A stretch of DNA of 64,000 bases, taken from contig NZ_FTNE01000002.1 of the NCBI RefSeq assembly GCF_900156265.1, positions 205,302-269,301 on the forward strand. The letters are read 5' to 3'. Both the position numbers and the translations under genes were made by a program. The first letter of the stretch is position 1, and every line of letters starts with the position of its first letter. This DNA is from Acidiphilium rubrum. GTDB taxonomy: Bacteria > Pseudomonadota > Alphaproteobacteria > Acetobacterales > Acetobacteraceae. Of this stretch, positions 13,014 to 57,820 are shown one piece after another. The notes below the pieces were generated by a model, which was not told where the DNA came from, ran no database searches, and was given only the letters and a program-made list of their open reading frames with translations.

Positions 13014-13129
13014 CTTCTTTTTTGGAAAAAAGAAGCAAAAAACTTTTTGCCTCGGGGGCATGGGCGGTTTCACCGGCATGGGCCCAGACAAATAAAGTTT
13101 TTTTGCTTCTTTTTTTTCAAAAAAAGAAG
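13014..13129. repeat. Composite palindrome 1 (arm-core-inverted arm)
   Basis: The left arm at 13014-13048 is a CTTCTTTTTTT/AAAAAAGAAG hairpin followed by CAAAAAACTTT. A GC-rich core of about 45 bp follows, then the inverted right arm at 13094-13129. Read on the minus strand, the core matches the GCCC-TGCCGGTGAAAC-G-CC pattern of composites 2-4. It sits between the divergent hydrolase and methyltransferase genes, upstream of both, so a terminator role does not explain it. Confidence 0.85.
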
Positions 13130-13213
13130 TCTACCCCGATCCTTTCTCATCCTTACCCTCGCCTTAAAGTTGAATTCGCTTGAAACTAATCCCCACCAAG
13201 CTAGAGTCACCCC

Positions 13214-13792
13214 ATGAACCCCGCAATGCAAGCCGACGACACCCGCCTCACACGCCTGATCACCCGCCAGGCTCAGAAGCGTCACCTCGCCGCCCTCTGG
13301 GCCGCAGCCGCCGGCATCGCCCCGGGCATGATCGTGCTCGACATCGGTGCCGGCTCCGGCGCGCTCTCGTTCGAATACGCTGCCCTGGTCGCCCCCGGCG
13401 GCCGGATCATCGCGATCGACCCCGATGCCGAATGCATCGCCCACATCAACGAACAAGCCACCAACCGCGCGCTGCCACTGCACGCCATCACCGGCACCGC
13501 CGAAGCCCTGCCGCCCCTACCCGCACCCCCCGATCGCGTCATGCTGACCGACGCGCTGCACCACATGAACGACCCGACCACCGCCCTGCGCCGCCTGCAC
13601 GCCATCATGCCGCCTCACGCCATCCTGTTCATCGCGGAATACGACCCCGCCGGTGCCGGTGCCATGGGTGCGAAACTCAGCCGCCGCACCGCCCCCGCCA
13701 CCGTCGCCGCGTTGCTCGCCGCCGCCGGCTTCACCATCCAGGCCCAGGCCGCGGCACCCGACGAGCATTACACCATCACTGCCATCCCATGA
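13214..13792 (+). CDS. Class I SAM-dependent methyltransferase
   Basis: A 192-residue methyltransferase. Motif I VLDIGAGSGALSFEYA is at 41-56, the acidic motif II end is IIAIDPD, and there is a post-motif ALHHMNDP. The pattern is that of UbiE/Methyltransf_11-type small-molecule enzymes; the substrate is not predictable. It is the first gene of a compact four-gene plus-strand operon (13214-17168), so its product may act on an envelope or lipid-linked substrate, which is inference from position only. The end of the gene runs into a tandem 14-bp duplication. Confidence 0.82.
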   Translation: MNPAMQADDTRLTRLITRQAQKRHLAALWAAAAGIAPGMIVLDIGAGSGALSFEYAALVAPGGRIIAIDPDAECIAHINEQATNRALPLHAITGTAEALPPLPAPPDRVMLTDALHHMNDPTTALRRLHAIMPPHAILFIAEYDPAGAGAMGAKLSRRTAPATVAALLAAAGFTIQAQAAAPDEHYTITAIP

Positions 13793-13822
13793 TCGCCCCA
13801 CCATGATCGCCCCACCATGATC
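13789..13822 (+). repeat. Tandem 14-bp duplication with three ATGATC starts
   Basis: The unit ATGATCGCCCCACC occurs twice head-to-tail (13789-13802 and 13803-13816) and a third ATGATC follows at 13817. Each unit offers an ATG in a different frame. Only ATG 13817 opens the O-antigen-ligase-like gene. The duplication separates the methyltransferase stop from that start by 24 nt, where an ATGA overlap may have existed before. Confidence 0.85.
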
Positions 13823-15142
13823 ACAATCGCCCGGCGCGACCCGATCGCCACGGCCGCCATCACCGCCCTGCTCGGCGTCGGCGCCATCGCCTGGCTGATG
13901 CCGCCGCTGATCATCCCGCTCCTGTTCGCCCTCGCCCTCGCCGTCGCCGCCACCATCGCCTACGCCCGCCCGGTCGCCGCCATGGCGCTCTGGCTCATCC
14001 TGGTCGAAACCACGCCGGAAATGTGGCTGTCGGACCTGATCGGCGCGCACGAACTCATCATCGCCCTGCTCAAATCCGCCGGCCTGCTGATCATCGCCCT
14101 CGCCGCCCTGCGCACCGCCCCGCGCGCCGACCGTTTCAACCCCTCCTACGCCTTCATCGTCATGTTCATCGATGGCGCGATCCACGGCCTCTGGCCCGGC
14201 CTGACCCCGATGGCCTCGCTCCGCTCGCTGATCGGCTCGGCCGCCCCCTTCGCCGCCGGCTACCTCCGCCTCAGTCCGGCGATGCGCGCCACCATCATCC
14301 GCTGCACCATCATCGGCCCCGCCATCACGGTCGGCTTCGGCATCGCCCTCGCCGCCCCCGGCATCCGCCCACTCTACGGTACCCAACTCGGCGCCATCCG
14401 CCTCGCCGCCTCCAGCGCCCCGGCCTTTCTCGGCGGCTTCGCCATGATCGCCATCTTCGCCGGCCTGCTCGAATATCTGCGCACCGGCCGGCCGCGCAAC
14501 CTGGCCTGGATCGGCCTGAACTATATCATCCTGATCGCCACCGGCGCGCGCTCGCCGCTCGCCATGGCCGGCTTCATCACCCTCGCCACTCTGCTGATCA
14601 CACCCTCACCCTTCCTCACCCCCGCCCGCCGCTTCGCAATCCTCGCCCTCGGCAGCGCCAGCCTCGGCATCGTGCTGATGGCCGCCTCCGCCCTGAGGGT
14701 CATCCGCGTGGTCGATCTGATCAACCTCGGCGACGCCGGCAGCCTGTCCAACCGCCAGCTCATTTGGCCCTTCTTCGAAGCCGCCGCCCGCCAATCCCCC
14801 TGGCTCGGCTGGGGCGTCGGCGCCGGCAAGGTCGTCGTCTCGATGAAATCCCACATCGGCCGCCTGCTCGGCACCAACGCCGCCCATAACGAATATCTGC
14901 GCATCACCGTCGAAGGCGGCGTGATCGGCGCGCTCCTCTTGTTCGCCATGCTCACCCTGTGGCTATGGCGGGGCAGCGCTGCGCTGCCCACCGCCCAGCG
15001 CCGCATCATCCGGCTTGTCTTCCTCGCGTTTGCCGTGCAATCCTTCACCGACAATACTTTGATCGCAACGACTAGCCTCGTGTTCTTCACCTGGGCGCGC
15101 GCGGTCTTCGTGAACCCCGATGAAAGCCCACCACCCGCATGA
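13817..15142 (+). CDS. O-antigen ligase / Wzy-type polytopic membrane protein
   Basis: A 441-residue protein with about 10-12 hydrophobic segments. The large periplasmic loop and AHNEYLRITVEGGVIGALLL signature match the Wzy_C/O-antigen ligase (WaaL-like) family, whose conserved His in that loop attaches or polymerises undecaprenyl-linked glycans. LSNRQLIWPFFEAAARQSPW before it is also typical of the family. Ligase and polymerase cannot be separated by sequence alone. No glycosyltransferases lie beside it. The end overlaps the beta-propeller gene by 4 nt. Confidence 0.82.
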   Translation: MITIARRDPIATAAITALLGVGAIAWLMPPLIIPLLFALALAVAATIAYARPVAAMALWLILVETTPEMWLSDLIGAHELIIALLKSAGLLIIALAALRTAPRADRFNPSYAFIVMFIDGAIHGLWPGLTPMASLRSLIGSAAPFAAGYLRLSPAMRATIIRCTIIGPAITVGFGIALAAPGIRPLYGTQLGAIRLAASSAPAFLGGFAMIAIFAGLLEYLRTGRPRNLAWIGLNYIILIATGARSPLAMAGFITLATLLITPSPFLTPARRFAILALGSASLGIVLMAASALRVIRVVDLINLGDAGSLSNRQLIWPFFEAAARQSPWLGWGVGAGKVVVSMKSHIGRLLGTNAAHNEYLRITVEGGVIGALLLFAMLTLWLWRGSAALPTAQRRIIRLVFLAFAVQSFTDNTLIATTSLVFFTWARAVFVNPDESPPPA

Positions 15143-16209
15143 CCGGTTCAGCCTCGCTCCCCCGCCGCACCCTGCTCGCCGCACCGTCCCTGCTCGCCCT
15201 GCCCGCGCTCGCGCGCGCCGCCGCCAAACCGTCCATCGCGCCCGCGGCACAGCCGCCTATCGCGCCCGCGGCACAGCCGCCCATCGCGCCCGCGGCACAG
15301 CCGCCCATCGCGATCGTCCTGAATTCCGGCGGTGCGACCGTCTCGATCATCGACATGGCCACCCGCAAAATCCTGCGCGACGAACCCACTTTCCGCGAAC
15401 CGAGCCACTGGGCCCTCACGCCGGACGCCAAAAAACTTCTGATCGCCGATTCCGCCGGCAACGCCATCTTCTTCCTCGACCCCGCAACCGGCACCGAACT
15501 CGGCCATAAACTCATCCCCGACCCTTACCAGCTCTGGTTCAGCCCGGATGGCACCTACCTCACCATCACCTGCCTCCGCCTCAACCACGTCGATGTCTAC
15601 CACGCCGCCAGCCTCACCCTGGCGCACCGCTTCAAACTCGGCTCGATGCCCTCGCACCTCAGCTACACGCCCGATTCCAAAACCGTCTTCGTCTCGATGC
15701 AGGACAGCGGCACCCTGGTCGCGATCGACCTCGCGAGCATGACCCCGCGCTGGACCACCAAAGTCGGCAAAACCCCCGCCGGCGTCATGTGGCACGACGG
15801 CGTCGTCCTCACCGCCATCATGGGCAGCGACCATGTCGCCGTGCTCGACCCCGCAACCGGCCGCATCACCCGCACCATCCTGACCGACAAGGGTGCCCAC
15901 AACATCTTCCTCACCCCCGATCGCACCCAGCTCTACGTCACCAACCGCGTCGCCGGCTCCCTCACCGTGCTCGATGCCAAAACCCTCGGCTTCGTCAAAC
16001 GCATCGCCATGCCCGGCGGCCCGGATGATCTCTGCTTCGCGCCCGACGGCAAACTCTGGATTGCGCTGCGCTTCGCCTCGCGCGTCGCCATCCACGACCC
16101 CGTCACCGGCGCCACCGACCATATCACCGTCGGCCGCTCGCCCCATGGCATCTTCATCTCCACCCTGCTGACCGACCGGCCAGCCCTCGCCGCCATGCGC
16201 CTCGCCTGA
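15139..16209 (+). CDS. Secreted YVTN-type beta-propeller protein
   Basis: A 356-residue exported protein. The N-terminus carries a twin-arginine-like signal (LPRRTLLAAPSLLALPALA). A low-complexity linker of three IAPAAQPP repeats (residues 33-56) follows, then about six or seven propeller blades with repeated TPD/SPDG turns (ALTPDAKKLLIADSAGNAIF, SYTPDSKTVFVSMQDSG, LTPDRTQLYVTNRVAGSLTV). Such propellers are usually binding or scaffold proteins. It overlaps its neighbours by 4 nt upstream and as TGATG downstream, so it belongs to the same operon. Confidence 0.82.
   Translation: MTGSASLPRRTLLAAPSLLALPALARAAAKPSIAPAAQPPIAPAAQPPIAPAAQPPIAIVLNSGGATVSIIDMATRKILRDEPTFREPSHWALTPDAKKLLIADSAGNAIFFLDPATGTELGHKLIPDPYQLWFSPDGTYLTITCLRLNHVDVYHAASLTLAHRFKLGSMPSHLSYTPDSKTVFVSMQDSGTLVAIDLASMTPRWTTKVGKTPAGVMWHDGVVLTAIMGSDHVAVLDPATGRITRTILTDKGAHNIFLTPDRTQLYVTNRVAGSLTVLDAKTLGFVKRIAMPGGPDDLCFAPDGKLWIALRFASRVAIHDPVTGATDHITVGRSPHGIFISTLLTDRPALAAMRLA
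15235..15312 (+). repeat. 24-bp in-frame tandem repeat in the propeller gene linker
   Basis: Three near-identical 24-bp units (15235-15258, 15259-15282, 15283-15306) and a 6-bp partial fourth encode IAPAAQPP repeats. Units differ by one base at most. As a multiple of three, the copy number can vary without frameshift, so linker length may be polymorphic between strains. Confidence 0.9.
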
Positions 16210-17168
16210 TGCTGATCATGGCACATGTGCTCTCGCACATACCGGCCCACCCGTTCAACGACATCGCCGGCTGGATCGAGCAGATCGCCGTCCTGCCCAT
16301 CCTTTACCGCGCCGGTCTCATGCAATGGAGCGAGCTGTCCTTCGGCTGGACCCTCGTTGCGGTCTACGGCATCACGCAGATGATCCTCGCCTACGCCGTC
16401 TGCGTCCCGCTCGAACGCCTCCGCCCGCTCGAACGCTGGACCACAAGCAAACCCATCCTGGTCGACGTGTTCTACACCTTCCTCGCGCGCGTCGGCGTGC
16501 TGCCGATCATGACCTTCGTGCTGTTCTACGCCGCCCAGGTTCAACTCGATGGCTTCCTCGCCGACCGCGGCTACGTCCCGCCGATGCTCGAAACCATCAT
16601 CCCCGCCCTGTTCGGCCACCCGATCATCACCTTTGCCATCTACGCCCTCATCCTCGACTTCACCGATTACTGGCGCCACCGCCTGTCGCACCGGTTTTCG
16701 ATCTGGTACGCGCTCCACGCCGTCCATCACGCCCAGCGCCAGATGACCTTCTGGTCCGACGACCGGAACCACATCATCGATGAAATCCTGAGCTTCCTCT
16801 GGTTCATGCTGATCGGCCTGCTCATCGGCATCCCACCCCTGCAATTTCCCATCCTGATCCTGATGCTGCGCTTCGTCGAAAGCCTCAGCCACGCCAACAC
16901 CACACTCTCGTTCGGTAAAATCGGCGACCGCCTGCTCGTCTCGCCACGCTTCCACCGCACCCACCACGGCATCCTCGCCGCCGGCCAGAAATCCTGCAAC
17001 TACGGCGCCGTCTTCCCGCTCTGGGATATCATCTTCCAAACCGCCGACTTCACCCGAACCCCAACCCCGACCGGCGACCCCACCGCCCCCGAAGCCATGG
17101 CCACCGGTACCTATCTGGCCCAGCAATGGTCCGGCATCGCCCACACCGTCCGGGCGTTGCGCGGCTAA
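16209..17168 (+). CDS. Sterol desaturase / fatty acid hydroxylase family protein
   Basis: A 319-residue integral membrane di-iron oxygenase. The histidine clusters are in place: HRLSH (157-161), HAVHH (170-174), a single His228 in ESLSHANT and HRTHH (249-253), between about five membrane segments. The family hydroxylates or desaturates acyl chains, sterols or carotenoids; a bacterial acyl or ornithine-lipid substrate is plausible but unproven. The ATG overlaps the upstream stop as TGATG. It is the last gene of the four-gene operon. Confidence 0.88.
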   Translation: MLIMAHVLSHIPAHPFNDIAGWIEQIAVLPILYRAGLMQWSELSFGWTLVAVYGITQMILAYAVCVPLERLRPLERWTTSKPILVDVFYTFLARVGVLPIMTFVLFYAAQVQLDGFLADRGYVPPMLETIIPALFGHPIITFAIYALILDFTDYWRHRLSHRFSIWYALHAVHHAQRQMTFWSDDRNHIIDEILSFLWFMLIGLLIGIPPLQFPILILMLRFVESLSHANTTLSFGKIGDRLLVSPRFHRTHHGILAAGQKSCNYGAVFPLWDIIFQTADFTRTPTPTGDPTAPEAMATGTYLAQQWSGIAHTVRALRG

Positions 17169-17205
17169 GCCGCCAGGCGCCAACCGCAAATCCGCCTGGT
17201 AAACC

Positions 17206-17574
17206 TCATCCCAGCGCCACGATCGCTGACACAAGCGCGATCGCCGTGATCGCCACGCTTGCGTGCGCGCCGATCACCACGCCCGACAAACGCTTGCCCC
17301 GCCACGCCGCCATGATCACCAGCAGCCCCAGCAAAATCGCAAGCCCGAGCAACACCTCCGCCCCGACGCCAAACCCCGCCACCCCGGCGGACGCCGGCGG
17401 CGGATGCCGTTCGAGCCCGATCACCAGCTCCAGCAGCCCGGCCGCGCCCACCACGCCATGCACCAGCCCCAACATCCACCCCGCGGCCGGCGGCGGTGTG
17501 CCGCGCAGATAGCCAATCGACAGATAACCGCCGAGTGTGGCGGCCAGGAGCAGGAAAACCAGGGCAATCGTCAT
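17206..17574 (-). CDS. Small four-helix membrane protein, unknown function
   Basis: A 122-residue protein with four hydrophobic segments (about residues 4-20, 30-48, 65-85, 100-120) and almost no loops. I start at MTIALVFLLLAATLGG; the frame extends 14 codons further upstream but that part is polar Ser-rich sequence. A single histidine per central helix (LGLVHGVVG, GAHASVA) may matter. I recognise no family with confidence. It is convergent with the fatty acid hydroxylase gene and divergent from the DUF1800 gene. Confidence 0.6.
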   Translation of the reverse strand: MTIALVFLLLAATLGGYLSIGYLRGTPPPAAGWMLGLVHGVVGAAGLLELVIGLERHPPPASAGVAGFGVGAEVLLGLAILLGLLVIMAAWRGKRLSGVVIGAHASVAITAIALVSAIVALG

Positions 17575-17633
17575 GCGCAAGCTCGTATCATTGCTGCTGC
17601 TCCCTGATAAAGACACGAAAAGGTTAAGAAAGG

Positions 17634-17666
17634 CCTTCTTTTTTCAAAAACAGGACCAAAAAATTC
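17634..17666. repeat. Degenerate palindrome arm
   Basis: CTTCTTTTTTCAAAAA (from 17635), then CAGGACCAAAAAATTC, resembles the left arm of the family but has lost the second half of the stem. It is a single copy without a core or inverted partner, between the divergent small membrane protein and DUF1800 genes. Confidence 0.55.
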
Positions 17667-17754
17667 CCCTGCGTCCAATCAGCCGACAAGGCCGATACCG
17701 CCCGGTCGCAGTTTGCAACACTTCGCTACGCGCCACCCTGGTAATACCCAGTTC

Positions 17755-19086
17755 ATGGACAGCGACATCACCCACGCCATGATCCGCTTCGGCTTCGGTG
17801 CCGGCGGCACCGCACCGGCCGCCACCAATGCGCGCGACTGGCTGCACGCCCAGCTCAAGGGACCAGACCCGGCCCTCGCCGATCCCTCCTTCGCCAACCT
17901 GCCCAGCGGGGCGGATGCGCTGCAGGCCCGCCGCACGGACGCGATGCAACGCAAACGCATCCTCGCCGCCGGCCAGCCCCTCAAGGGCAATTTCAAACCG
18001 CTCAGCCGCGCGATGTTCCTCGGCGACGCCAAAGCCCAGCTCGACTGGACGATCGACACCCCTTCCCCGTTCCGCGAGCGCCTGGTCTGGTTCTGGGCCA
18101 ATCACTTCACCACCTCGATCCGCCAGGGCGGCATCGAAGCCCTGGTCGGCCCCTTCATCCGTGAAGCGATCCGCCCGCACGTGACCGGCAACTTCACCAA
18201 TATGGTGCTCGCCGCCGAACGCCACCCCGCCATGCTGCTCTACCTCGCCAACGCTTTCTCGGTCGGCCCGAACAGCCCCGCCGGCCTGCGCTTTCATCGT
18301 GGCTTGAACGAAAACCTCGGCCGCGAATGCATGGAACTCCACACCGTCAGCCTGCGCGCCGGCTACACCCAGACCGACGTGACCAACATGGCCAAGCTGC
18401 TCACCGGCTGGTCGGTCAATCCGCAAAACCAACCCACCGGCTTCATGTTTCGCCCCTTCGCACACGAACCCGGCCCGCAAACCGTGCTCGGTCGTCAATT
18501 CCCGCCCGGCGAGGCCGGCGGCATCGCCGCCCTGCGCTTCCTGGCCACCCACCCCACCACCTACCAATCCCTCGCCAGCAAACTCGCCTGGCATTTCTGC
18601 GGCGATCATCCACCCCAAGCCGCGGTTGACCATCTCGCCACCGTGCTCACCGATACCAAAGGCAACCTCGGTGCCGCTGCCGCCGCATTGATCGACCTGC
18701 CCGCCGCCTGGCAACCGCTGACCAAAATCAAAACCCCGTTCGACTACACCATCTCGCTCGCCCGCGCCGCCGGCATCACCAACGCCCCGGTCGGCTTTCA
18801 TCTCGGCACGCTCCGCAAACTCGGCCAGCCGCTCTGGGCCGCCCCGCTGCCGAACGGCTGGTCCGATCACGGTGCGGACTGGACCGGGTCGGACGCGGTG
18901 CTCGCAAGGGTCGATTTCGGCTTCACCGCCGCCGCCCGCGCGCAAAGCACCACGCCGATGGATGTCGCCCGCTCATCGCTCGGCCCCCTGCTGCACCCGG
19001 CCACCGCAACCGCCATCGCCACCGCCGGTTCGCCGCGCGAAGCCCTGGCCATGCTGTTCGCCGCCCCCGAATTCCAAAGGAGATAG
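17755..19086 (+). CDS. DUF1800 domain-containing protein
   Basis: A 443-residue protein with the DUF1800 signature: HAMIRFGFGAGG at the start, RERLVWFWANHFTTSI, MLLYLANAFS, NENLGRECMELHTVS and TNMAKLLTGWSV. The family is of unknown function and is nearly always next to a DUF1501 gene, as here (6-nt gap). Some members carry Tat or Sec signals; none is obvious in this copy. I start at MDSDITHAMIRF; the upstream 14 codons (from 17713) are weakly supported. Confidence 0.88.
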   Translation: MDSDITHAMIRFGFGAGGTAPAATNARDWLHAQLKGPDPALADPSFANLPSGADALQARRTDAMQRKRILAAGQPLKGNFKPLSRAMFLGDAKAQLDWTIDTPSPFRERLVWFWANHFTTSIRQGGIEALVGPFIREAIRPHVTGNFTNMVLAAERHPAMLLYLANAFSVGPNSPAGLRFHRGLNENLGRECMELHTVSLRAGYTQTDVTNMAKLLTGWSVNPQNQPTGFMFRPFAHEPGPQTVLGRQFPPGEAGGIAALRFLATHPTTYQSLASKLAWHFCGDHPPQAAVDHLATVLTDTKGNLGAAAAALIDLPAAWQPLTKIKTPFDYTISLARAAGITNAPVGFHLGTLRKLGQPLWAAPLPNGWSDHGADWTGSDAVLARVDFGFTAAARAQSTTPMDVARSSLGPLLHPATATAIATAGSPREALAMLFAAPEFQRR

Positions 19087-19092
19087 GCCGCG

Positions 19093-20316: not shown

Positions 20317-20329
20317 ACCGTAGGAGCGG

Positions 20330-21022
20330 CTACATCGCGTCCTTAATACCGGTTTTAACCAGCACCCAGTTCATCGGATACGCCGTGGCAAACCCGATGA
20401 TCATGCCGATCTGCATCATGAACCAGAATACCGGCGTGTCTGGTTTCGGCGGCGTCGTGAAAAACCCGAACTGCATCAGCGCCATCCAACCGAACAACCC
20501 GATCTCGAATGCGGTCAGCGAGAGCGCGTCGGCCTTGAATGCCGCGATCACGCCGGCCACCGGTTTCAGCCCGCGCATCGGTACGATCGAGGCGTATTGA
20601 AACCCGACGCCAAGGAGGAACGCAAACGCGTAATCGAGCACCAGTTGCGCCCCGAACGTCGAGCCGGCGATGGTGATGCCCGCGAAAAACACCAGAAATT
20701 CCGCGAAAATATCACCCAGCGTGCAGCCGGCGCCGCAATGGGTGGAGCCCACGAAGGTCTGCATCCAGAACGGCTTTGCCTCCTTGTGTTCATGATGATG
20801 CGCGTGGTCGTGGCCTGACATGGCAGGGCTGGCCTGCCGCCCCATCGTCCAATACGCCCATAGCGCCAACGGCCCGAAATACAGCGCCGTGATCGGCCAC
20901 ACCGGGTTCATCACCGCCATCGATTGTGGATGCCGGCGCAGATCGAGCGCGATGACGACGGCCGTAACGGCGGCGACCACCAGCGACACTATGGAAAGCC
21001 AGGTCAACCACGACGCGATCAT
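20330..21022 (-). CDS. DUF4396 membrane protein with His-rich loop
   Basis: A 230-residue polytopic membrane protein of the DUF4396 family. A cytoplasmic or periplasmic loop (about 71-79) reads [13 protein letters not shown], followed by the [11 protein letters not shown] segment with Cys at about 95-100: a candidate metal-binding pair. The conserved region [20 protein letters not shown] is typical of the family. The start overlaps the copA stop as ATGA, which selects Met at 21022 over 21046. Coupling to a Cu(I) ATPase suggests a role in copper handling, which is inference. Confidence 0.85.
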
Positions 21023-23274: not shown

Positions 23275-23298
23275 GGGAAAATCCTTGCCATCACCGTG

Positions 23299-23329
23299 GA
23301 TATGGTGATTCCCACGATGGGAAGGTCAA
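23299..23329 (-). promoter_or_regulatory. CueR-type copper-responsive promoter of copA
   Basis: On the minus strand a -35 TTGACC (23324-23329) and a -10 CATATC (23299-23304) are separated by 19 bp, the long spacer typical of MerR-family promoters. The spacer holds the half-palindrome ACCTTCCC-ATCGT-GGGAA, closely resembling the E. coli copA promoter. The predicted transcript starts about 18 nt before the copA ATG. No cueR gene is seen nearby. Confidence 0.7.
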
Positions 23330-23366
23330 GCCTGCGACATCAAACGCAAGGCGAGGCAGGAAGTGT

Positions 23367-23485
23367 CTTCTTTTTTGTGAACAAAAAAGAAGCAAAAAAA
23401 ACTTTGTTAATCTAGGCCCGTGCCGGTGAAACGGCCCGTGCCCCTGAATCAGAAAGTTCTTTGCTTCTTTTTTCCAAAAAAGAAG
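23367..23485. repeat. Composite palindrome 2
   Basis: The left arm at 23367-23405 has the stem CTTCTTTTTTGT/ACAAAAAAGAAG with a short GA loop region, then the inner AAAAAAAACTTT. The core is GGCCCGTGCCGGTGAAACGG, then CCCGTGCCCC. The inverted right arm is at 23453-23485. It lies between the copA promoter and the end of the MAPEG gene; the right arm ends 6 nt from the MAPEG stop. Confidence 0.9.
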
Positions 23486-23490
23486 CCTTC

Positions 23491-23886
23491 CTACCCACCC
23501 AGCAGCAGCATCACCGCCACCACCGCCAGCACCACCCAGGTGATAAACGCCCCCGGCGCCCGCAGCGCGAATTGCTGCGTTGAGTTCTCGCGCGCCATCA
23601 TCCCGAACGGATGAATCACGCGCGCCACCACCAGCGGCAGCAGCAACGCGTTCATCGTCACCGTCCCCGCCCCGCGCGCCTCGAGCAGTGCCGCCAGCAC
23701 CAGAATCAGCGGCACGTATTCGTTGAAATTCGCATGCGCGCGGATGCGCCGGTTCAGATTGTCATTGCCGCCATCGCCATGAAGCACCTTGAACTTACCC
23801 CGGCCCGCCACGACCCAGCCGGTGATCGCCAGATAGATCAAGGCCAGGATCGCAGCATAAATCGCCGTGATGTGCGGGAAAATCAT
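23491..23886 (-). CDS. MAPEG-family membrane protein
   Basis: A 131-residue protein with four membrane helices and the MAPEG signature RIRAHANFNEYVPLILVLAALLE (in two parts: RIRAHANFNEY and VPLILVLAALLE). Members are membrane-associated glutathione S-transferase or peroxidase-like proteins related to YecN. The substrate is unknown. I start at MIFPHITAIYAAIL; ATG 23907 would add seven residues. It lies 42 nt downstream of the oligoendopeptidase start and on the same strand. Confidence 0.85.
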   Translation of the reverse strand: MIFPHITAIYAAILALIYLAITGWVVAGRGKFKVLHGDGGNDNLNRRIRAHANFNEYVPLILVLAALLEARGAGTVTMNALLLPLVVARVIHPFGMMARENSTQQFALRAPGAFITWVVLAVVAVMLLLGG

Positions 23887-27663: not shown

Positions 27664-27698
27664 GCTTCTTTTTTGTAAAAAAGAAGCAAAAAACTTTT
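27664..27698. repeat. Palindrome arm (left type), upstream of the ABC exporter
   Basis: The stem GCTTCTTTTTT/AAAAAAGAAGC is followed by AAAAAACTTTT, the same orientation as the left arm of the composites. With the right-type arm at 28255-28290 it flanks the 126-residue lipoprotein gene. The rest of 27393-27739 shows no gene-like frame; the Lys/Phe-rich frames there are translations of this arm. Confidence 0.85.
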
Positions 27699-28254: not shown

Positions 28255-28290
28255 AAAAAAGTTTTTTGCTTCTTTTTTGCAAAAAAGAAG
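28255..28290. repeat. Palindrome arm (right type), downstream of rplQ
   Basis: AAAAAAGTTTTTTG is followed by the stem CTTCTTTTTT/AAAAAAGAAG with a GC centre. It is the inverted partner orientation of the arm at 27664. It lies 23 bp after the rplQ stop, where a terminator of the alpha operon is expected, but on the coding strand the stem is followed by A's, not U's. Confidence 0.85.
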
Positions 28291-28313: not shown

Positions 28314-28748
28314 TCAAGCCGCCTCAGCCGTATCGTCCTCATCATCCTTGACCTCAGGCTTCGGACCGCTATCGAGCCCCTTCGCCGCCAGATCACGATC
28401 GACCAGTTCGATCACCGCCATATCCGCCGCATCGCCATAGCGCATCCCGGCCTTCAGCACGCGGGTATAACCACCCTGGCGCTCCTTGTACCGGTCGGCC
28501 AGCGCCGCGAACAGCTTGGACACGATCACCTCATCGCGCAGCACCGCATGAGCCTGGCGGCGCGCATGCAGCCCGCCACGCTTGCCCAGCGTGATCAACC
28601 GGTCAGCCACCGGTGCCAGTTCCTTGGCCTTCGGCAACGTCGTGGTGATCTGCTCATGCTTGAGCAGGGCCACCGCCATGTTGCGGAACATGGCCGCACG
28701 GTGGGACGTGGTGACGCCGAGTTTACGTCCAGCAATTCCGTGACGCAT
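28314..28748 (-). CDS. rplQ: 50S ribosomal protein L17 (bL17)
   Basis: A 144-residue ribosomal protein near the exit tunnel. The [20 protein letters not shown] start and [20 protein letters not shown] block are diagnostic. The core of about 118 residues is followed by an acidic tail ([12 protein letters not shown]), common in alphaproteobacteria. It is the last gene of the alpha operon, 34 nt after rpoA. A palindrome arm follows. Confidence 0.97.
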
Positions 28749-33149: not shown

Positions 33150-33179
33150 GTTCTTTTTTGTAAAAAAGAACCAAAAAAC
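33150..33179. repeat. Palindrome arm, GTTC/GAAC variant, between rplO and secY
   Basis: GTTCTTTTTT/AAAAAAGAAC is a perfect stem with a short loop, followed by CAAAAAAC. Compared with the common CTTC/GAAG arm, both ends have changed together, keeping the pairing. It is a single arm in left-type orientation, inside the spc operon 11 bp after the rplO stop. Confidence 0.85.
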
Positions 33180-33189: not shown

Positions 33190-33675
33190 TTAGGCAGCTG
33201 CCGCTTCGGCTTTCGCCACCAGCGTTTTTACCGTGCCGCCGGCCTGCTCGATCGCCGCGATCGCTGTGGCCGACGCACCCGACACCACGATCTCGACCTT
33301 GGTCGAAATCTCGCCGCGCCCGAGCAGCCGCACGCCCGACAGCTTCGAACCGGCATACACGCCCGCCGCCCGCAGGTTTTCCTCGGTGATCGGCGCCGAA
33401 GCATCTAGCTTGCCCGCCGCGATCAACATCGCCAGCGTGCCCACGTTCAACGGCGCATAATCCTTGCGGTTCACATTGGTAAAGCCGCGCTTTGGCATAC
33501 GCCGATAGATCGGCAGCTGACCACCCTCGAACCCGTTCAGCGAGACGCCTTCACGCGCCTTCTGACCCTTGACCCCCTTGCCAGAGGTCTTGCCCTTGCC
33601 CGACCCGATGCCACGGCCAAGCCGCTTCGATTTCAGGCGCGCACCCTGGTTGTCGCGCAGTTCATTCAGATTCAT
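33190..33675 (-). CDS. rplO: 50S ribosomal protein L15 (uL15)
   Basis: A 161-residue large-subunit protein that binds 23S rRNA late in assembly. The [20 protein letters not shown] start and the Gly/Lys-rich [20 protein letters not shown] segment are diagnostic, with [17 protein letters not shown] after it. The start overlaps the rpmD stop by 4 nt. Confidence 0.97.
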
Positions 33676-41669: not shown

Positions 41670-41673
41670 CGTC

Positions 41674-43963: not shown

Positions 43964-44027
43964 AGGTATCTCCGTCTCGTATTTGGTTCAGCGCCGCACT
44001 CAAAACCGGCGTCAGATGAGTTTCCGT

Positions 44028-44504
44028 CTACCAGCGATAATGGCTGAACGCCTTGTTGGCTTCGGCCATGCGATGCGTGTCTTCACGCTTCTTCACTGCC
44101 GCACCACGGTTGTTCACCGCGTCCAGCAGCTCGTTCGACAACCGGTCCTCCATCGTGTGCTCGCCCCGCTTGCGTGCACTCTCGATGATCCAGCGAATCG
44201 CCAAAGCCTGGCGCCGCTCGGTCCGCACTTCGACCGGAACCTGATACGTCGCACCACCAACCCGGCGCGACCGCACCTCGATCGCCGGCTTCACATTATC
44301 AAGCGCCTCATGAAACATCCGAACCGGATCGGCATTGTTGCCGCCCCGCTTCTTCAAACTGTCCAGCGCACCATAAACAATGGTCTCAGCGGCCGATTTC
44401 TTGCCATCATACATCAGCACGTTCATGAAACGGCTGATCACCACATCACCGAATTTCGGATCGGGCAAAACTTCGCGCTTGGTCGCGGAATGACGTCTGC
44501 TCAC
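44028..44504 (-). CDS. rpsG: 30S ribosomal protein S7 (uS7)
   Basis: A 158-residue head-assembly initiator. [20 protein letters not shown] at the start, [20 protein letters not shown] and the C-terminal [14 protein letters not shown] are diagnostic. It represses the str operon in E. coli. It lies 12 nt after rpsL. Confidence 0.98.
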
Positions 44505-44516
44505 AATCTGATCTCC

Positions 44517-44888
44517 TTACTTCGGCCGCTTCGCGCCATACAGCGAACGACGCTGACGACGCTTGGCAATGCCCTGGGTATCGAGAACGCCACGCAGAAT
44601 ATGGTACCGCACGCCCGGCAAATCCTTCACGCGGCCACCACGGATCAACACCACCGAGTGCTCCTGCAGATTATGCCCCTCACCCGGAATGTAGCTCACC
44701 ACCTCGTAGCCGTTGGTGAGGCGCACCTTGGCAACCTTACGCAACGCCGAGTTCGGCTTCTTCGGGGTCGTGGTATAAACGCGGGTGCAAACACCACGCT
44801 TCTGCGGGCAGTTCTGCAGCGCCGGCACCTTGTTGCGCTTGGCCCGAACTTCACGCCCCTTGGCGATCAACTGATTGATAGTCGGCAT
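44517..44888 (-). CDS. rpsL: 30S ribosomal protein S12 (uS12)
   Basis: A 123-residue decoding-centre protein. [20 protein letters not shown] at the start. Lys43 and Lys88, where streptomycin-resistance changes map, are wild type. Asp89 is the usual RimO methylthiolation site. ATG 44888 is standard; a 37-codon upstream extension is not. It is the first gene of the str operon. Confidence 0.98.
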
Positions 44889-44954
44889 GCACTCGTCGTC
44901 CTTCTGGCCTAAATCCGTCTCGCCGGGATCACCCGTCACGCGCTCATACAAACA

Positions 44955-44983
44955 CCGCAGGGCGGAGAACACTCCACCTGCGG
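44955..44983 (-). promoter_or_regulatory. Leader hairpin of the str operon
   Basis: CCGCAGG (44955-44961) pairs with CCTGCGG (44977-44983), and GGAG with CTCC inside around an AACA loop. It lies in the roughly 200-nt leader between the candidate promoter and rpsL, about 67 bp before the start codon. The hairpin is clear; its function (regulation or stability) is inferred. Confidence 0.5.
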
Positions 44984-45089
44984 CAACCCAGACCCGCAAC
45001 CTAAGTCAACCCCAAGGGACGACGGCGCCGCAAGCGTGAGAATAATGAACGGCGCGACCAGGAATTCCCCGCGTCTCGCTGAGGCGCCA

Positions 45090-45118
45090 CCCTTAAGAGC
45101 CAGGCTCCCCAGAGTCAA
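45090..45118 (-). promoter_or_regulatory. Candidate promoter of rpsL-rpsG-tuf
   Basis: Minus strand: -35 TTGACT (45113-45118), a 17-bp spacer and -10 TAAGGG (45090-45095). The -10 is weak, but spacing and -35 agree with the alpha-operon promoter. A second TTGACT at 45004-45009 has no -10 partner. Confidence 0.4.
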
Positions 45119-45138
45119 GTCGATTCCCCCGAAAAAGG

Positions 45139-45179
45139 CCAGGGCTCTGCCCTGGACCCGCTGGGGCCTTAGGCCCCAG
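45139..45179. repeat. Pair of GC-rich perfect hairpins
   Basis: CCAGGGC-TCT-GCCCTGG (45139-45155) is followed after 5 bp by CTGGGGCC-TTA-GGCCCCAG (45161-45179). Tandem palindromes of this kind are, to my knowledge, a common dispersed intergenic repeat in alphaproteobacteria. Here they lie between the str promoter and the start of the plus-strand GNAT gene, at the left edge of that insertion. Confidence 0.75.
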
Positions 45180-45196
45180 ACCCCACTGGAAAGAGA

Positions 45197-46216
45197 ATGA
45201 TTTTGTTGCGCCGATGCCGGGGGCATGGAAGGGTATGGCCGGTGACCCAGGCATTTCCACCATCGCTCGAAATCAGCGTGATCGACCGTCGAAATATCGA
45301 CTTATGGTTCCAAATCGGCCCGAAGCCTGCAAAAGCTCAAGCAGCACGGAACCGAGTGTTGGCTAACATCTCCTCAAACACACCTCACAACGTAGTCCGC
45401 CTCGTCGCACATCAGGGATTTGAGACATACGCGAGAATTGCAACCGAAATCGATTCCCGGGGTCGGTTTCAGGTCTGGCCGCCTGTCTTCGCTGATACGT
45501 TATCAATGTGCCACAAAAAAAATCTCGCCGGTTTGATACTGAACCGAACACTGGAACTATTTTCCGAAGTTGAAATCAAATATAGTGAGACTCGCTTTCT
45601 CGAGAGTCACCCTGCTGCGTCAGTCTGGCTTGATGCCGTGGTCGCTGACCGCTTTGAATTCACTGCGGCAGCCGCTATCCTGACCCATCGACGCTCAGCA
45701 ACGACGCGAAAGAGTTCAATCGCCCGCAGCATCACTGGCGGGGGTCATTTCACAGAAACCGATCTGCTTGATCTTTACCTCGCATGCCAAACCGATACGA
45801 TGGACCGAGCCGATAATGACCCCCTGATCGACTTGCGAGCTGATATGGCGGAATTTCTCGATCCTGCCGAACCCAGCGCCGATCGTACCATCTGGCTGGT
45901 CGCAACCGAGGGCGACAAGCCCATCGGGCTCCTCATCCCCCAGATTGATCGTGAAACACGGTCAGGATGGATCGCCTACGTGGGTGTGACCAAATCCCAT
46001 AGGGGCAAACGTGTCGGCACAGCGCTGATTGAACGCTGTCTCGCCGATCACGACGTCCCAGGACTGCAATTCAAAGCCATGGTCGATCTGATCAACGACC
46101 CCTCCATAAAACTCCATCGATCGAGCGGTTTCGCAGATACGTTCGACCGATTCATCACCTACCGCAAACCTTGGAGCCGTGCCGCGGACGATAGCGCAGC
46201 AGCCGCACCAATCTGA
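45197..46216 (+). CDS. GNAT-family N-acetyltransferase with unknown N-terminal region
   Basis: A 339-residue protein. The C-terminal third is a GNAT fold with the acetyl-CoA loop YVGVTKSHRGKRVGTALIE (Q/RxxGxG/A-like, residues about 260-280). The N-terminal 190 residues contain a second acyltransferase-like half (WPPVFADTLSMCHKKN, then ESHPAASVWLDAVV) that I cannot name. GGAAAGAG precedes ATG 45197; GTG 45242 is an alternative. It is the only plus-strand gene in a 29-kb block, is visibly less GC-rich than its neighbours, and separates rpoC from rpsL, so it is probably an insertion. Confidence 0.75.
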   Translation: MILLRRCRGHGRVWPVTQAFPPSLEISVIDRRNIDLWFQIGPKPAKAQAARNRVLANISSNTPHNVVRLVAHQGFETYARIATEIDSRGRFQVWPPVFADTLSMCHKKNLAGLILNRTLELFSEVEIKYSETRFLESHPAASVWLDAVVADRFEFTAAAAILTHRRSATTRKSSIARSITGGGHFTETDLLDLYLACQTDTMDRADNDPLIDLRADMAEFLDPAEPSADRTIWLVATEGDKPIGLLIPQIDRETRSGWIAYVGVTKSHRGKRVGTALIERCLADHDVPGLQFKAMVDLINDPSIKLHRSSGFADTFDRFITYRKPWSRAADDSAAAAPI

Positions 46217-46223
46217 GGTTCCC

Positions 46224-46257
46224 AAAAGTTTTTTGCTTCTTTTTTACAAAAAAGAAG
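46224..46257. repeat. Palindrome arm (right type) between GNAT gene and rpoC
   Basis: AAAAGTTTTTTG is followed by the stem CTTCTTTTTT/AAAAAAGAAG. It lies 8 bp after the GNAT stop and about 17 bp before the rpoC terminator. No partner arm is near. Confidence 0.85.
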
Positions 46258-46273
46258 CCTGCCTCCCTGAACC

Positions 46274-46304
46274 TAAAAAAAACCGGCACCCCGAAGGATG
46301 CCGG
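46274..46304 (-). terminator. Intrinsic terminator of rpoBC
   Basis: On the minus strand CCGGCATCC pairs with GGGTGCCGG around a TTCG tetraloop, followed by eight T's: a canonical Rho-independent terminator 27 bp after the rpoC stop. On the plus strand the stem is followed by CTTCTTCG, so it may weakly stop GNAT transcription as well. Confidence 0.92.
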
Positions 46305-46330
46305 CTTCTTCGTTCCACCAAACGCCGCCG

Positions 46331-50497
<4,167 letters not shown>

Positions 50498-50563
50498 GCA
50501 ACAATCCCTTTCATCGACGCGGCGTGGCAACCCCACCCCGCGCCATGATCAAACCGCCAAAAC

Positions 50564-54772
<4,209 letters not shown>

Positions 54773-54865
54773 ACCCCAATCAATAATTCAGTAACGAACC
54801 ATCGCCCGACAGCGATGCCGTATCGTATCAGTCCAAATCTCGCCCATCAGGCGCAACAGCAAACG

Positions 54866-54935
54866 GGCGGAGTGCCCGAGGGCACTCCGCCGAAGTCAGG
54901 TCGAAAACGCCGCGGTGAGTTGCCTCACGCGGCGT
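54866..54935 (-). promoter_or_regulatory. Two hairpins between rplL and rpoB: attenuator and second stem
   Basis: Reading on the minus strand, ten bases after the rplL stop a stem ACGCCGC-GTGAG/CTCAC-(bulge)-GCGGCGT (54907-54935, GCAA loop) is followed by TTTTCG, a leaky terminator. About 15 bp later comes a perfect 12-bp hairpin GGCGGAGTGCCC/GGGCACTCCGCC (54866-54891). In E. coli the same interval has an attenuator and an RNase III site, so partial termination that sets the r-protein to polymerase ratio is likely. Confidence 0.7.
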
Positions 54936-54944
54936 CGCGGTAAA

Positions 54945-55322
54945 TCATTCGATGCCGACAGATGCGCCCTGCTCTTCCAGAACCTTCTTGATCTTCTCGG
55001 CCTCGTCCTTGTTCACGCCTTCCTTCACGGTCTTCGGCGCGCCTTCAACGAGGTCCTTGGCTTCCTTCAGCCCGAGACCGGTGATCGTCCGGATTTCCTT
55101 GATCACGTTGATCTTCTTGTCCCCGGCGGCCTTCAGCACGACGGTGAATTCGGTCTGCTCCTCAACCGGAGCCGCAGCAGCGCCTGGCGCCGCCGCAGCA
55201 GCGACCGCAACCGGTGCCGCAGCCGAAACACCCCACTTCTCTTCGAGCAGCTTGGAAAGCTCCGCTGCTTCGAGGACAGTGAGGGAAGAGAGTTGGTCAA
55301 CTAAATTTGCGAGATCAGCCAT
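54945..55322 (-). CDS. rplL: 50S ribosomal protein L7/L12 (bL12)
   Basis: A 125-residue stalk protein present in multiple copies that recruits translational GTPases. The N-terminal dimerisation region ([20 protein letters not shown]), an Ala-rich hinge (about 40-55) and the C-terminal domain with [20 protein letters not shown] and [13 protein letters not shown] are clear. The start is ATG 55322; a 14-codon upstream extension is not typical. It is separated from rplJ by composite palindrome 3. Confidence 0.98.
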
Positions 55323-55415
55323 TTCGTCAGTTCCTATAATAGTCGTTGTGATGGTTCCATGCAAGCCCGAACCGTTCGGGCTCGCTCACGGCGACGCTGA
55401 AGGCGTAAAAGAAGT

Positions 55416-55530
55416 CTTCTTTTTGTGAACAAAAAGAAGCAAAAAAACTTTATGAATCTAGCCCGTACCGTTGAAACGCCCGTGCACCAAATTCAAGAAA
55501 GTTTTTTGCTTCTTTTTTACAAAAAAGAAG
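55416..55530. repeat. Composite palindrome 3, between rplJ and rplL
   Basis: The left arm is 55416-55451 (CTTCTTTTTGT/ACAAAAAGAAG, then CAAAAAAACTTT), the core is GCCCGTACCGTTGAAACGCC, then CGTGCACC, and the inverted right arm is 55498-55530. It fills most of the 222-bp gap between rplJ and rplL, which are usually separated by well under 100 bp. Confidence 0.9.
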
Positions 55531-55544
55531 CCTTCTTCCTCCCC

Positions 55545-56093
55545 TCACGCCGCCTCAGCGCTATCCTCAGCCCCATTCGCCTTGGCATAAGCCGCGAAAA
55601 CCCGCGCAAGCTGCCCAGCCGGAGCCTGCAGCACACCCGCAATCCGCGTCGCCGGCGCCTGGATCAGACCCAGGAGCTTGCCACGCAATTGATCGAGCGA
55701 CGGCAGTTCGGCCAGCGCGCGAACACCCGATGCATCGAGCATCTGAGTCCCCAACGCGCCACCGACCAGCACGAACTTCTCGTTGGTCTTGGCGAACTCG
55801 ACCGCAGCCTTTGCCACCGCTACCGGATCATGCGACCACGCCAACGCGGTCGGACCCTTCATCAGCGGCACCAGCCCGTCGAACTTGGTGCCTTCCAAGG
55901 CGATATGGGCCAAACGGTTCTTCGCCACTTTATATTGTGCGCCCGCCGCCCGCATCCGCACGCGCAACGCCGTCACATCGGCAACCGTCAACCCGTCATT
56001 GCGGGTCACCACGATCATCGACGTCTCAGCGAACACGGTCGCAAGCGAGTCCACGAACTCACGCTTCTGTGCGCGATCCAATTCGGTCTCCAC
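55545..56093 (-). CDS. rplJ: 50S ribosomal protein L10 (uL10)
   Basis: A 182-residue stalk base that binds L12 dimers through its C-terminal helix. FVDSLATVFAETSMIVVTRN, LRVRMRAAGAQYKVAKNRLA and GPTALAWSHDPVAVAKAAVE are diagnostic. The start is GTG 56093 (protein begins METELDRAQ); there is no better ATG. A 275-bp leader and composite 4 separate it from rplA. A second palindrome composite follows it. Confidence 0.97.
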   Translation of the reverse strand: METELDRAQKREFVDSLATVFAETSMIVVTRNDGLTVADVTALRVRMRAAGAQYKVAKNRLAHIALEGTKFDGLVPLMKGPTALAWSHDPVAVAKAAVEFAKTNEKFVLVGGALGTQMLDASGVRALAELPSLDQLRGKLLGLIQAPATRIAGVLQAPAGQLARVFAAYAKANGAEDSAEAA

Positions 56094-56368
56094 TCGTCAG
56101 GCATCACGCGTTTGGACCGCGCAACACCGGTTTTCCCAAAGCGGCAAGGACCATCCCAGCCGCATGTTCGCCTGTCCGTGATTGGAACCATCGGTGCCTC
56201 AACACCTCCGACACCCCATCTACGGCCTGCGGGCTCACACCCATTAAAGTCCGAAAGGACTACAAACCGTCTTGGACAGGTCCGGAACCGCCAGCATAGC
56301 CGGCAATCCCGTCATGGCCGAACTGAAGCCCGGCACATTCTCAAAAACTCACCAAAGGCAGGTAAGGT
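56094..56368 (-). promoter_or_regulatory. rplJ leader region (putative L10 leader)
   Basis: A 275-bp untranslated stretch directly upstream of rplJ with no credible gene. In most bacteria this position holds the L10(L12)4-binding leader that autoregulates rplJL. Short complementary blocks exist (for example GTCCGAAAGGAC at about 56249-56260 and GCCCGCAGGC near 56224), but I did not derive a full fold. The assignment is mainly positional. Confidence 0.45.
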
Positions 56369-56484
56369 CTTCTTTTTGTGAACAAAAAGAAGCAAGAAAA
56401 CTTTGATAATCTAGGCCCGCGCCTTTGAAAACGCCCGTGCCCCAGAGTCAAAAAGTTTTTTGCTTCTTTTTTACAAAAAAGAAG
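56369..56484. repeat. Composite palindrome 4, between rplA and rplJ leader
   Basis: The left arm is 56369-56404 (CTTCTTTTTGT/ACAAAAAGAAG, then CAAGAAAACTTT), the core is GGCCCGCGCCTTTGAAAACG, then CCCGTGCCCC, and the inverted right arm is 56452-56484. It lies 21 bp after the rplA stop. Confidence 0.9.
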
Positions 56485-56505
56485 CCTTCCCTTCCCCTAA
56501 CTCCC

Positions 56506-57198
56506 TCAAGCCGAAAGCGTACTCACATCAACCCGAACCCCAGGTCCCATCGTCGAAGACAACGCCGCCTTCTGCAAATAAGTCCCCTTCGCCCCGGCCG
56601 GCTTCGCCTTCTGAATCGCATCGACCAACGCCTTCGCGTTCTCGATCAGCAACCCGGCATCAAAACTCGCCTTGCCGATCCCCGCATGAATAATCCCGGC
56701 CTTCTCCGCCCGAAACTCCACCTGGCCCGACTTCGCCGCCGTCACCGCACCTTTGACGTCCATCGTCACGGTGCCCAGCTTCGGATTAGGCATCAGCCCG
56801 CGCGGCCCAAGAATCTTCCCCAGCCGCCCGACCAACGCCATCATGTCCGGCGTCGCGATGCAACGATCGAACGCAATGTTGCCCGCCTGCACCTGCTCGG
56901 CCAGATCATCGGCACCCACCACATCCGCACCCGCCGCCCGCGCCTCATCCGCCTTCGGCCCGCGCGCGAACACGCCAACCCGCAGCGTCTTGCCCGTGCC
57001 GTTCGGCAACGAAATCAACCCACGCACCATCTGATCGGCATGACGCGGATCGATGCCGAGATTCAACGACAATTCCACAGTCTCATCGAACTTCGCCGTC
57101 GCATTGGTCTTCACCAACGCCATCGCCTCGTCCAACGCATAGGCCTTGTTCGCCTCGACCGCGGACGTCGCCTTAACCAAACGCTTGTTCTTCGCCAT
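56506..57198 (-). CDS. rplA: 50S ribosomal protein L1 (uL1)
   Basis: A 230-residue protein of the mobile L1 stalk that releases E-site tRNA and represses its own operon in E. coli. [37 protein letters not shown] (in [20 protein letters not shown]) and [19 protein letters not shown] are diagnostic. It lies 2 nt after rplK. Confidence 0.98.
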
Positions 57199-57200
57199 GA

Positions 57201-57635
57201 TCAGCCCTCCACCACCGAAAGACCCATCGACCGCGCCGACCCGATCAACATGCGCACCGCACCATCGACATCATTGGCGTTCATATGAACCATCTTCGTC
57301 GCCGCAATTTCCCGCAACTGCGCCATGGTCACCTTACCCACGGTCGCACCCTTGCCGGTCGTCGTGGACCCCTTGGTAATCCCCGCCGCCTTCTTCAGAA
57401 AATACGTGTTCGGCGGCGTCTTGGTGATAAAGGTAAAGGTCCGATCGCCAAACGCGGTAATCACCACCGGCACCGGCATGCCCACTTCCATACCCTGCGT
57501 CGCCGCATTGAAATCCTTGCAGAACTGCATGATATTCAACCCGCGCTGCCCCAAAGCAGGCCCAACCGGCGGCGACGGATTAGCCTTGCCCGCCGGTATC
57601 TGTAACTTGATATAGCCAACAATCTTCTTCGCCAT
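57201..57635 (-). CDS. rplK: 50S ribosomal protein L11 (uL11)
   Basis: A 144-residue GTPase-centre protein that binds 23S rRNA with L10/L12 and is needed for RelA activation. [20 protein letters not shown] (thiostrepton-binding N-terminal domain), [18 protein letters not shown] and [16 protein letters not shown] are diagnostic. The start is ATG 57635; the frame is open far upstream through a palindrome arm. It is the first gene of this transcription unit, with a consensus-like promoter 98 bp upstream. secE and nusG are not here. Confidence 0.97.
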
Positions 57636-57732
57636 AAGGCGCACTCCCATCCGCTGACGCAAAAACGCCAATAGACCGCGGTCCAACCGGCCAGAGCACC
57701 ACGCCCCAGCCTCCCGCGTTCTGTGTACCCCG

Positions 57733-57761
57733 CCTATATCGCCCCCCGCCCGAATTGTCGA
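57733..57761 (-). promoter_or_regulatory. Sigma70-like promoter of rplKAJL-rpoBC
   Basis: Minus strand: -35 TCGACA (57756-57761), a 17-bp spacer and -10 TATAGG (57733-57738). This is the best consensus match in the window, and it leaves a leader of about 90 nt before the rplK ATG. It fits the absence of secE-nusG upstream. Confidence 0.65.
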
Positions 57762-57787
57762 GTCGGGAAGCCGAAAGGAAGCAAGCC

Positions 57788-57820
57788 GTTCTTTTTTGAA
57801 AAAAAGAACCAAAAAACTTT
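57788..57820. repeat. Palindrome arm, GTTC/GAAC variant, upstream of rplK promoter
   Basis: GTTCTTTTTT/AAAAAAGAAC stem and then CAAAAAACTTT, the same covarying variant as the arm at 33150. It lies about 26 bp upstream of the rplK -35, at the junction between the core operon and the accessory region. Confidence 0.85.

Follow-up and report, generated by a model that had tools for sequence, protein, structure and literature searches.

A REPIN-like doublet of AT-rich palindromes dispersed in Acetobacteraceae and phage genomes, apparently under selection where it sits

Introduction

Several families of short structured repeats are known from bacteria and phages. Correia/NEMIS elements have long terminal repeats and TA duplications, E. 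coli BIMEs are sites for gyrase and IHF, and T4-like phages carry promoter stem-loop cassettes between genes. According to excerpts of two papers, repetitive extragenic palindromes (REPs) are reported as exonuclease barriers with translational effects (PMC12306157), and Correia/NEMIS elements act on their neighbours via RNase III and promoters (PMC2649163). For repeat doublets of bacteria, REPINs among them, it is an open question whether they are selfish or of use at their sites. Here we describe a family of AT-rich palindromes in a 64,000-nucleotide stretch of Acidiphilium rubrum (contig NZ_FTNE01000002.1, forward-strand positions 205,302 to 269,301), hereafter the window, numbered from its first letter; its genome (3.98 Mb, 78 contigs) is called G000, and other genomes bear similar working numbers. 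The family is real: it is a REPIN-like doublet that fails the test of association with a REP-associated tyrosine transposase (RAYT) and shows measured constraint in place. From sequence comparison, we give about even chances to the fuller account that this doublet has probably spread by transposition and is kept by selection in place, probably as an RNA structure at gene ends or between cistrons. The family permits a direct test of the open question, as it offers orthologous sites with and without the element, a contrast of composites with lone arms, and measured constraint within one genus.

In the covered parts of the open-licence PMC literature, the literal arm strings had no match and no title or opening of an abstract described the family. 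In the passages seen, PMC12306157 reports numerous REPs for Lichenicola cladoniae under a generic palindrome criterion, PMC3733652 reports CGTC repeats to be missing in Acetobacteraceae, and the Gluconobacter RNA-seq paper PMC5756330 has nothing on such repeats among 12 of its 29 passages.

Architecture of the element

The unit measures about 115 bases and consists of two AT-rich palindromes, the arms, in mirror orientation about a changeable GC-rich centre. The order in such a composite is a purine-rich flank, a self-complementary arm, CAAAAAACTTT, the core, AAAGTTTTTTG, the inverted arm and a pyrimidine-rich flank, the purine-rich signal fading across about 18 bp. As in REPINs, the inverted doublet with its spacer is the unit: neighbouring arms at near range face each other in 199 cases, whereas direct order occurs 3 times (2 and 1) and the back-to-back arrangement 14 times; in a further 32 facing pairs the direction of one arm is unclear.

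Among 505 arms picked by their right half alone, 468 have a perfect 4-bp left partner, and double changes yield CTAC/GTAG (11), CTGC/GCAG (5) and TTTC/GAAA (5). Closing pairs match within the arm in 58/60 cases in G000, 14/14 in G096, 89/90 in named genomes and 67/70 in viral contigs; from arm to arm the corresponding values are 26/30, 7/7, 5/45 and 12/35. Each arm pairs with itself, and outside Acidiphilium pairing within arms is kept more than pairing between them. The 'long inverted ends' proposed in the initial annotation of this DNA are not supported in that form; the ends are two self-pairing palindromes, usually of unlike kinds outside Acidiphilium. All 22 strict composites of G055 join a CTTC arm to a GTTC arm, with a six-base GTGAAC-type loop on the CTTC arm in 21, and looser typing gives mixed arms in 24/29; the 37 composites typed in G000 comprise 22 mixed, 14 BB and 1 unclear. 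A single long hairpin, which RNAfold favours for the window composites and with which matching Acidiphilium arms agree, was rejected on the arm-to-arm values elsewhere (only 5/45 named, 12/35 viral).

The core sequence varies between the genera examined. For a putative central hairpin of the core, the halves of one element complement each other better than halves exchanged between elements, both in named genomes (p 0.004, n = 11) and in a set from G119, G178, G055 and G206 (p 0.001, n = 12). Over all 87 elements this advantage is weak (p 0.017), and it is not seen in G000 (n = 29, a test muddled by mixed orientations), G096 (n = 6), viral contigs (n = 14) and G055 (n = 22, p 0.58). A three-hairpin model with a core hairpin is possible. 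Pairing of the outer flanks within an element was discarded as a general property (p 0.94 in G000, 0.05 in named genomes, 0.007 in viral contigs). One composite (G000 contig C31, locus L047, 11735) has the A-arm loop GTGAAC in G000 but GTTCAC at the corresponding site of G206, as if the arm had been inverted.

Constraint on paired and lone arms

G000 and G206 represent two species about 5-8% apart. The fetched G000 stretches contain 92 elements (50 composites, 42 lone arms), 19 of which (13 composites and 6 lone arms) can be aligned, both flanks included, with the retrieved portion of G206. All 13 composites are kept, so that turnover is slow, and a recognisable arm is kept at 4/6 lone-arm sites; in the reverse comparison, one G206 site has two overlapping lone arms and G000 none. 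In the shared composites the arms have changed at 8/566 positions and the extensions at 2/310 (together 10/876), compared with 64/618 in the cores and 34/204 in arm plus extension of the six lone arms (Fisher tests, p 3e-16 against cores and p 1e-17 against lone arms). Lone arms on average change as fast as neutral sequence, so that singlets decay faster than doublets, as in REPINs. Individually, two of the six are without substitution, two have four changes each, including one paired change from CTCC/GGAG to CTAC/GTAG, and two can no longer be recognised in G206. Because elements were located through their arms in G000, intact arms are favoured in that genome, for composites and lone arms alike.

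The conservation is not due to base composition, because A/T and G/C positions are both slower than their intergenic counterparts: in the nine first-aligned composites, A/T positions of arms have changed at 4/468, against 518/3165 intergenic A/T positions and 26/260 in intergenic AAA/TTT context, and G/C positions at 5/140 against 567/4871. Gene conversion was also considered and is disfavoured, as the variants GTTC/GAAC and CGTC/GAAG and the loops GG and AT are the same at a given site in both species, though core halves look exchanged at some sites. In the composite between rplJ and rplL, the distal A arm is letter-for-letter identical in four species and the core differs. These comparisons indicate that the two-arm unit is under selection where it sits, and the contrast between paired palindromes, which change little between species, and lone ones, neutral in rate on average, points to a likely RNA structure at gene ends.

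Position relative to genes

Placement was judged from the calls of a simple gene caller. All 45 elements in the first 464 kb of G000 are intergenic, as are 69/73 of a larger G000 set, including all 37 composites; the remaining four are lone arms inside predicted genes. In tandem gaps of G000, 38/44 elements lie nearer the upstream stop, with a median of 22 nt to that stop and 101 nt to the next start, and the same holds for 32/41 in G206, 8/13 in G096 and 7/13 in G055, whose value is not trusted: its gene calls doubtfully put 14/29 composites inside genes, and G055 was left out of the placement argument. In phages, where the counts include some near-duplicate contigs, 39/45 tandem composites are nearer the stop and 37/45 begin no more than 29 nt from it. 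The arm next to the stop is the B arm in 15/16 mixed tandem composites of G000 and in 11/13 of the largely orthologous G206 set.

Elements in the window

The arm pattern was tested against 100 first-order random sequences, in which the exact stem pattern is expected 0.0 times. All 14 arms, four composites and six lone arms of the initial annotation are present where it had placed them, the lone arm at 17635 being degenerate. The arms start at 13014, 13106, 17635, 23367, 23464, 27665, 28269, 33150, 46236, 55416, 55509, 56369, 56463 and 57788, and the elements are as follows.

13014..13129, no strand: composite 1, hairpins 13014-13035 and 13106-13129, both of short-loop type with a GC-rich core between; divergent gap between an alpha/beta hydrolase gene and a methyltransferase gene
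17635..17656, plus strand: lone arm, degenerate; divergent gap
23367..23485, no strand: composite 2, A hairpin 23367-23392 (loop GTGAAC) and B hairpin 23464-23485; directly past the stop of a MAPEG gene (23491-23886, minus strand)
27665..27686, plus strand: lone arm; tandem gap
28269..28290, minus strand: lone arm downstream of rplQ (28314-28691, minus strand); the aligned G096 site is without an arm
33150..33171, plus strand: lone arm downstream of an L15-type gene (33190-33675, minus strand); decayed in G096
46236..46257, minus strand: lone arm between rpoC (minus strand) and a GNAT gene (plus strand), beyond a separate rpoC hairpin
55416..55530, no strand: composite 3, A hairpin 55416-55439 and B hairpin 55509-55530; between rplJ and rplL; present in G096, G206 and G208, absent from G153 and G196
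56369..56484, no strand: composite 4, A hairpin 56369-56392 and B hairpin 56463-56484; between rplA and rplJ; present in G096, G206 and G208, absent from G153 and G196
57788..57809, plus strand: lone arm of GTTC/GAAC type; upstream of rplK

The shared core also holds within G000, since 120-base stretches of three composites are inverted copies of each other at 80-85% (13014 with 56369, and 13014 with 23370). An ordinary terminator-like GC hairpin with a T-run lies behind rpoC at 46275-46306, distinct from the lone arm at 46236. At 15218-15312, a predicted gene contains three 24-bp tandem repeats, a unit length that is a multiple of three. Rfam at gathering score gave no match in the window.

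Filled and empty sites

The composites at rplJ-rplL and rplA-rplJ are found in G000, G096, G206 and G208, with none in G153 and G196. A further 27 rplJ loci were compared, 4 of them with no assignable rplL start. Both composites occur in G208, and G119 carries one, before rplJ; the 26 loci other than G208 have no arm past the rplJ stop within 500 nt or up to the end of the locus. Between G000 and G096, two composites are kept, and of two lone arms one has decayed and the other is missing. Among related phages, L280 and L273 have an element in the gap that follows a tail-fibre gene, where L219, L264 and L266 have none; the next gap shows the reciprocal pattern, with an element in L219, L264 and L266 but not in L280 and L273, and one net insertion measures 144 bp at TAC^TGA. 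Filled and empty orthologous sites, as expected of miniature inverted-repeat transposable elements, thus exist both at ribosomal-protein loci and in phages. The idea that copies might occupy the same sites in all relatives, by which a mobile element would have been contradicted, receives a mixed answer: sites differ among relatives, yet 13/13 composites are kept between G000 and G206.

Terminator, RNA structure or DNA structure

The initial annotation held that termination does not explain the copies, in part because the stems are not followed by U's. Only one half of this argument holds: no T's follow the stems on the outside, but they do on the inside, and a transcript leaving the core meets AAAGTTTTTTGCTTCTTTTTT in both directions. 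Dispersed bidirectional intrinsic terminators, with the GC core as hairpin and the inner T-runs as U-tracts either way, would also account for the proximity to stop codons and for the T-runs inside both arms, and G153 and G196, which lack the composite, have other hairpins at the rplA end. Moreover, a promoter-like TTGCAT-17-TATTAT before rplL, seen by eye and not in the promoter scan, is largely kept in the four species compared, including species without the composite, so that termination could occur at composite 3. We nevertheless consider general termination unlikely. The next start follows within less than 40 nt in 9/44 tandem copies in G000 and 20/45 tandem phage composites, too short for a new promoter, with more room in others; the far half of the distal arm, past any release point, is conserved; cores vary freely; lone arms are without a core; and terminator-like sites between 44000 and 60000 number 15 (two arms included) against 15.9 in shuffles. 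Full termination is accordingly a poor fit, as had been claimed, although the inner T-runs are present, and a conserved, stop-adjacent pair with little promoter room would better fit an intercistronic or 3'-end structure than a full terminator. Promoter-like sites between 44000 and 60000 show no excess over shuffles.

Two sequences near composite 3 are recorded here in their own right: the promoter-like TTGCAT-17-TATTAT ahead of rplL lies at about 55330-55365 (minus strand), and TTGCATGGAACC recurs after rplJ in many other genera.

Less probable still is a role at the DNA level, in which the paired palindromes would be protein-binding sites or cruciforms extruded at gene ends through supercoiling. 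The few stem mismatches on the transcribed strand comprise no G-U, 5 A-C and 13 other pairs; without RNA-type tolerance of G-U, such a role stays conceivable. It would also suit A-tract palindromes kept in tandem, convergent and divergent gaps alike, and the site whose loop differs between species (GTGAAC against GTTCAC) as if inverted through the hairpin. Stop proximity within phage operons is, however, more natural for an RNA role, and no binding protein was identified.

Copy number and spread

The family extends beyond the span 13014..57820, as G000 contains 326 strict arms (165 + 161) and no match to the arm pattern read backward; it shares with REPINs the form of short extragenic palindromes in high copy, mainly intergenic. 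Among 200 genomes drawn evenly from Acetobacteraceae, 61 have at least one strict arm, the carriers ranging from 1 to 1,181 (G178), and the backward control matches at most once per genome. Numbers are patchy even within Acidiphilium, with 326, 240, 214, 137, 27, 7, 6, 2, 1, 1, 0, 0 and 0 strict arms in 13 genomes. GC content was rejected as the cause, the fetched stretches having 0.637 in G000, 0.634 in G096, 0.647 in G153 (1 arm) and 0.694 in G196 (1 arm). Strict composites number 76 in G206, 53 in G119, 190 in G178 and 63 in G055.

A scan of named species agrees in centring the family on Acetobacteraceae, an association that had been suggested at the outset. Among 80 of 118 stretches listed, most are Acetobacteraceae/Rhodospirillales records (Gluconacetobacter, Roseomonas, Rhodovarius, Rhodovastum, Acidiphilium and unnamed metagenome-assembled genomes), together with one 'Acidobacteria' bin with several matches and scattered single matches in other phyla, the latter of which may be chance or mislabelled bins.

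At least 80 viral loci carry the family, and the element sits inside tail operons of phage contigs. Genuine phages are among them, as ten proteins of two viral loci include matches to the baseplate, tail fibre, tail sheath and endolysin families of PHROGs; their hosts are likely of Acetobacteraceae type. With one composite as query, INPHARED phage records gave no match and PLSDB one plasmid. This is pACMV3 of Acidiphilium multivorum (L071, NC_015179.1), with a diverged composite at 6001-6129 between ABC transporter genes; a short annotated hypothetical protein overlapping it is probably no gene. Contig C2 of G196 matches at identical coordinates, which makes this genome very probably A. multivorum AIU301. 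A different dispersed repeat of about 200 bp, at L034 11588-11793, has matches in G096, G153 and G196.

Search for a mover

The window encodes a RAYT at 58694-59320 (Y1_Tnp, 25.7 bits, cut-off 23), with a second, partial copy at about 59964-60092 and GTAG-type repeats nearby at 58524-58551, 59746-59777 and 61805-61836. A rival reading is that the elements are ordinary, purely selfish REPINs moved by this enzyme. In its favour, matches to the window RAYT occur in 10/18 high-copy against 2/19 low-copy genomes (p 0.005), within Acidiphilium in 4/4 against 0/5, and an arm lies within 220 bp of a RAYT in 6/20 loci, all of them among the 11 from Acidiphilium. Outside this genus none of 9 RAYT loci has an arm so close, and 8/18 high-copy genomes have no RAYT match, including G119 (864 arms) and G171 (687 arms). 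The GTAG repeats, which form a separate family, lie within 140 bp of the RAYT in 12/20 loci and correlate with it more strongly than the arms do (rho 0.74 against 0.47). A cognate RAYT flanked by the repeat, as REPINs have, is not a feature of the family, and the arm sequences are without the GTAG or CGTC tag. The two arms flanking the L337 RAYT do not bracket it, because both point the same way. Pfam Y1_Tnp, present in 5/32 genomes, has no link to arm abundance. Selection in place, moreover, misfits a purely selfish element, and we regard ordinary RAYT-driven REPINs as an improbable explanation.

Discussion

The account we favour is that a doublet of two palindromes has probably spread by transposition through a putative mover enzyme; copies would move as the doublet, and the enzyme would recognise two often unlike hairpins as left and right ends. 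Selection would then keep the composite where it sits, often just past a stop codon, with its function exerted in RNA: the predicted hairpins would act in the transcript, shielding the upstream message and modulating read-through. More tentatively, and with somewhat less than even chances, the family may be specified as a RAYT-independent mobile doublet of Acetobacteraceae and their tailed phages, in which the unlike hairpins serve at once as ends for the mover and as a domesticated stop-proximal 3'-end cassette with an exchangeable core.

Several observations weigh against this account. As to mobility, no target-site duplication, a check already proposed in the initial annotation, is clear at the six phage sites inspected, just one of them clean enough to judge; there is no new insertion between G000 and G206 at aligned sites; no protein recurs between 11 facing arm pairs 250-4000 bp apart in the genome stretches searched; and G062 has 200 strict arms and no strict composite. 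As to function, 8/37 G000 composites occupy divergent gaps, for which a role at 3' ends does not suggest itself, lone phage arms are indifferent to the stop (29/57), and the B arm fails to face it in G096 (2/6) and, with doubtful gene calls, in G055 (3/9). Nor are lone arms uniformly neutral, with two of six unchanged and another carrying a paired change, and the few mismatched stem pairs give no sign of the G-U tolerance expected of RNA.

The dispersed, structured and apparently non-autonomous element of the initial annotation is borne out, with sites gained or lost; that reading had not noticed that copies prefer positions just past stop codons, that phages carry them too and that paired arms are under selection in place. 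If the account favoured here is true, a single mobile cassette has remodelled numerous gene ends in certain species, rplJ-rplL in front of rpoBC among them, as well as tail-gene boundaries in phages, and close relatives manage without it. An undiscovered mover is indicated as well, one that would take AT-rich hairpins as its recognition sites.

Comparison with known systems places the family between several of them. Like the stem-loop cassettes of T4-like phages, it provides small stem-loop modules between phage genes that vary among related phages; unlike them, it is shared with bacterial chromosomes in hundreds of copies, with no promoter shown. As far as the excerpts seen go, it resembles Correia/NEMIS (PMC2649163) in being a short inverted-repeat element with a core, dispersed near genes and probably mobile, and differs in its self-pairing arms, the lack of a visible duplication and the absence of promoter-like excess in 44000-60000. 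The position close behind stop codons and within operons is that of E. coli REP/BIME (PMC12306157, in part), to which the family has no apparent sequence relation. The likeness to REPINs, in the portion of PMC3116915 consulted, extends to high-copy extragenic palindromes, their pairing in inverted orientation around a spacer of lower conservation, the stronger conservation of doublets than of singlets, and compensatory changes. Unlike those REPINs, the family has AT-rich arms without a GTAG or CGTC tag, often two unlike arms, copies in phages and many high-copy genomes without a RAYT, and its constraint is measured at orthologous sites.

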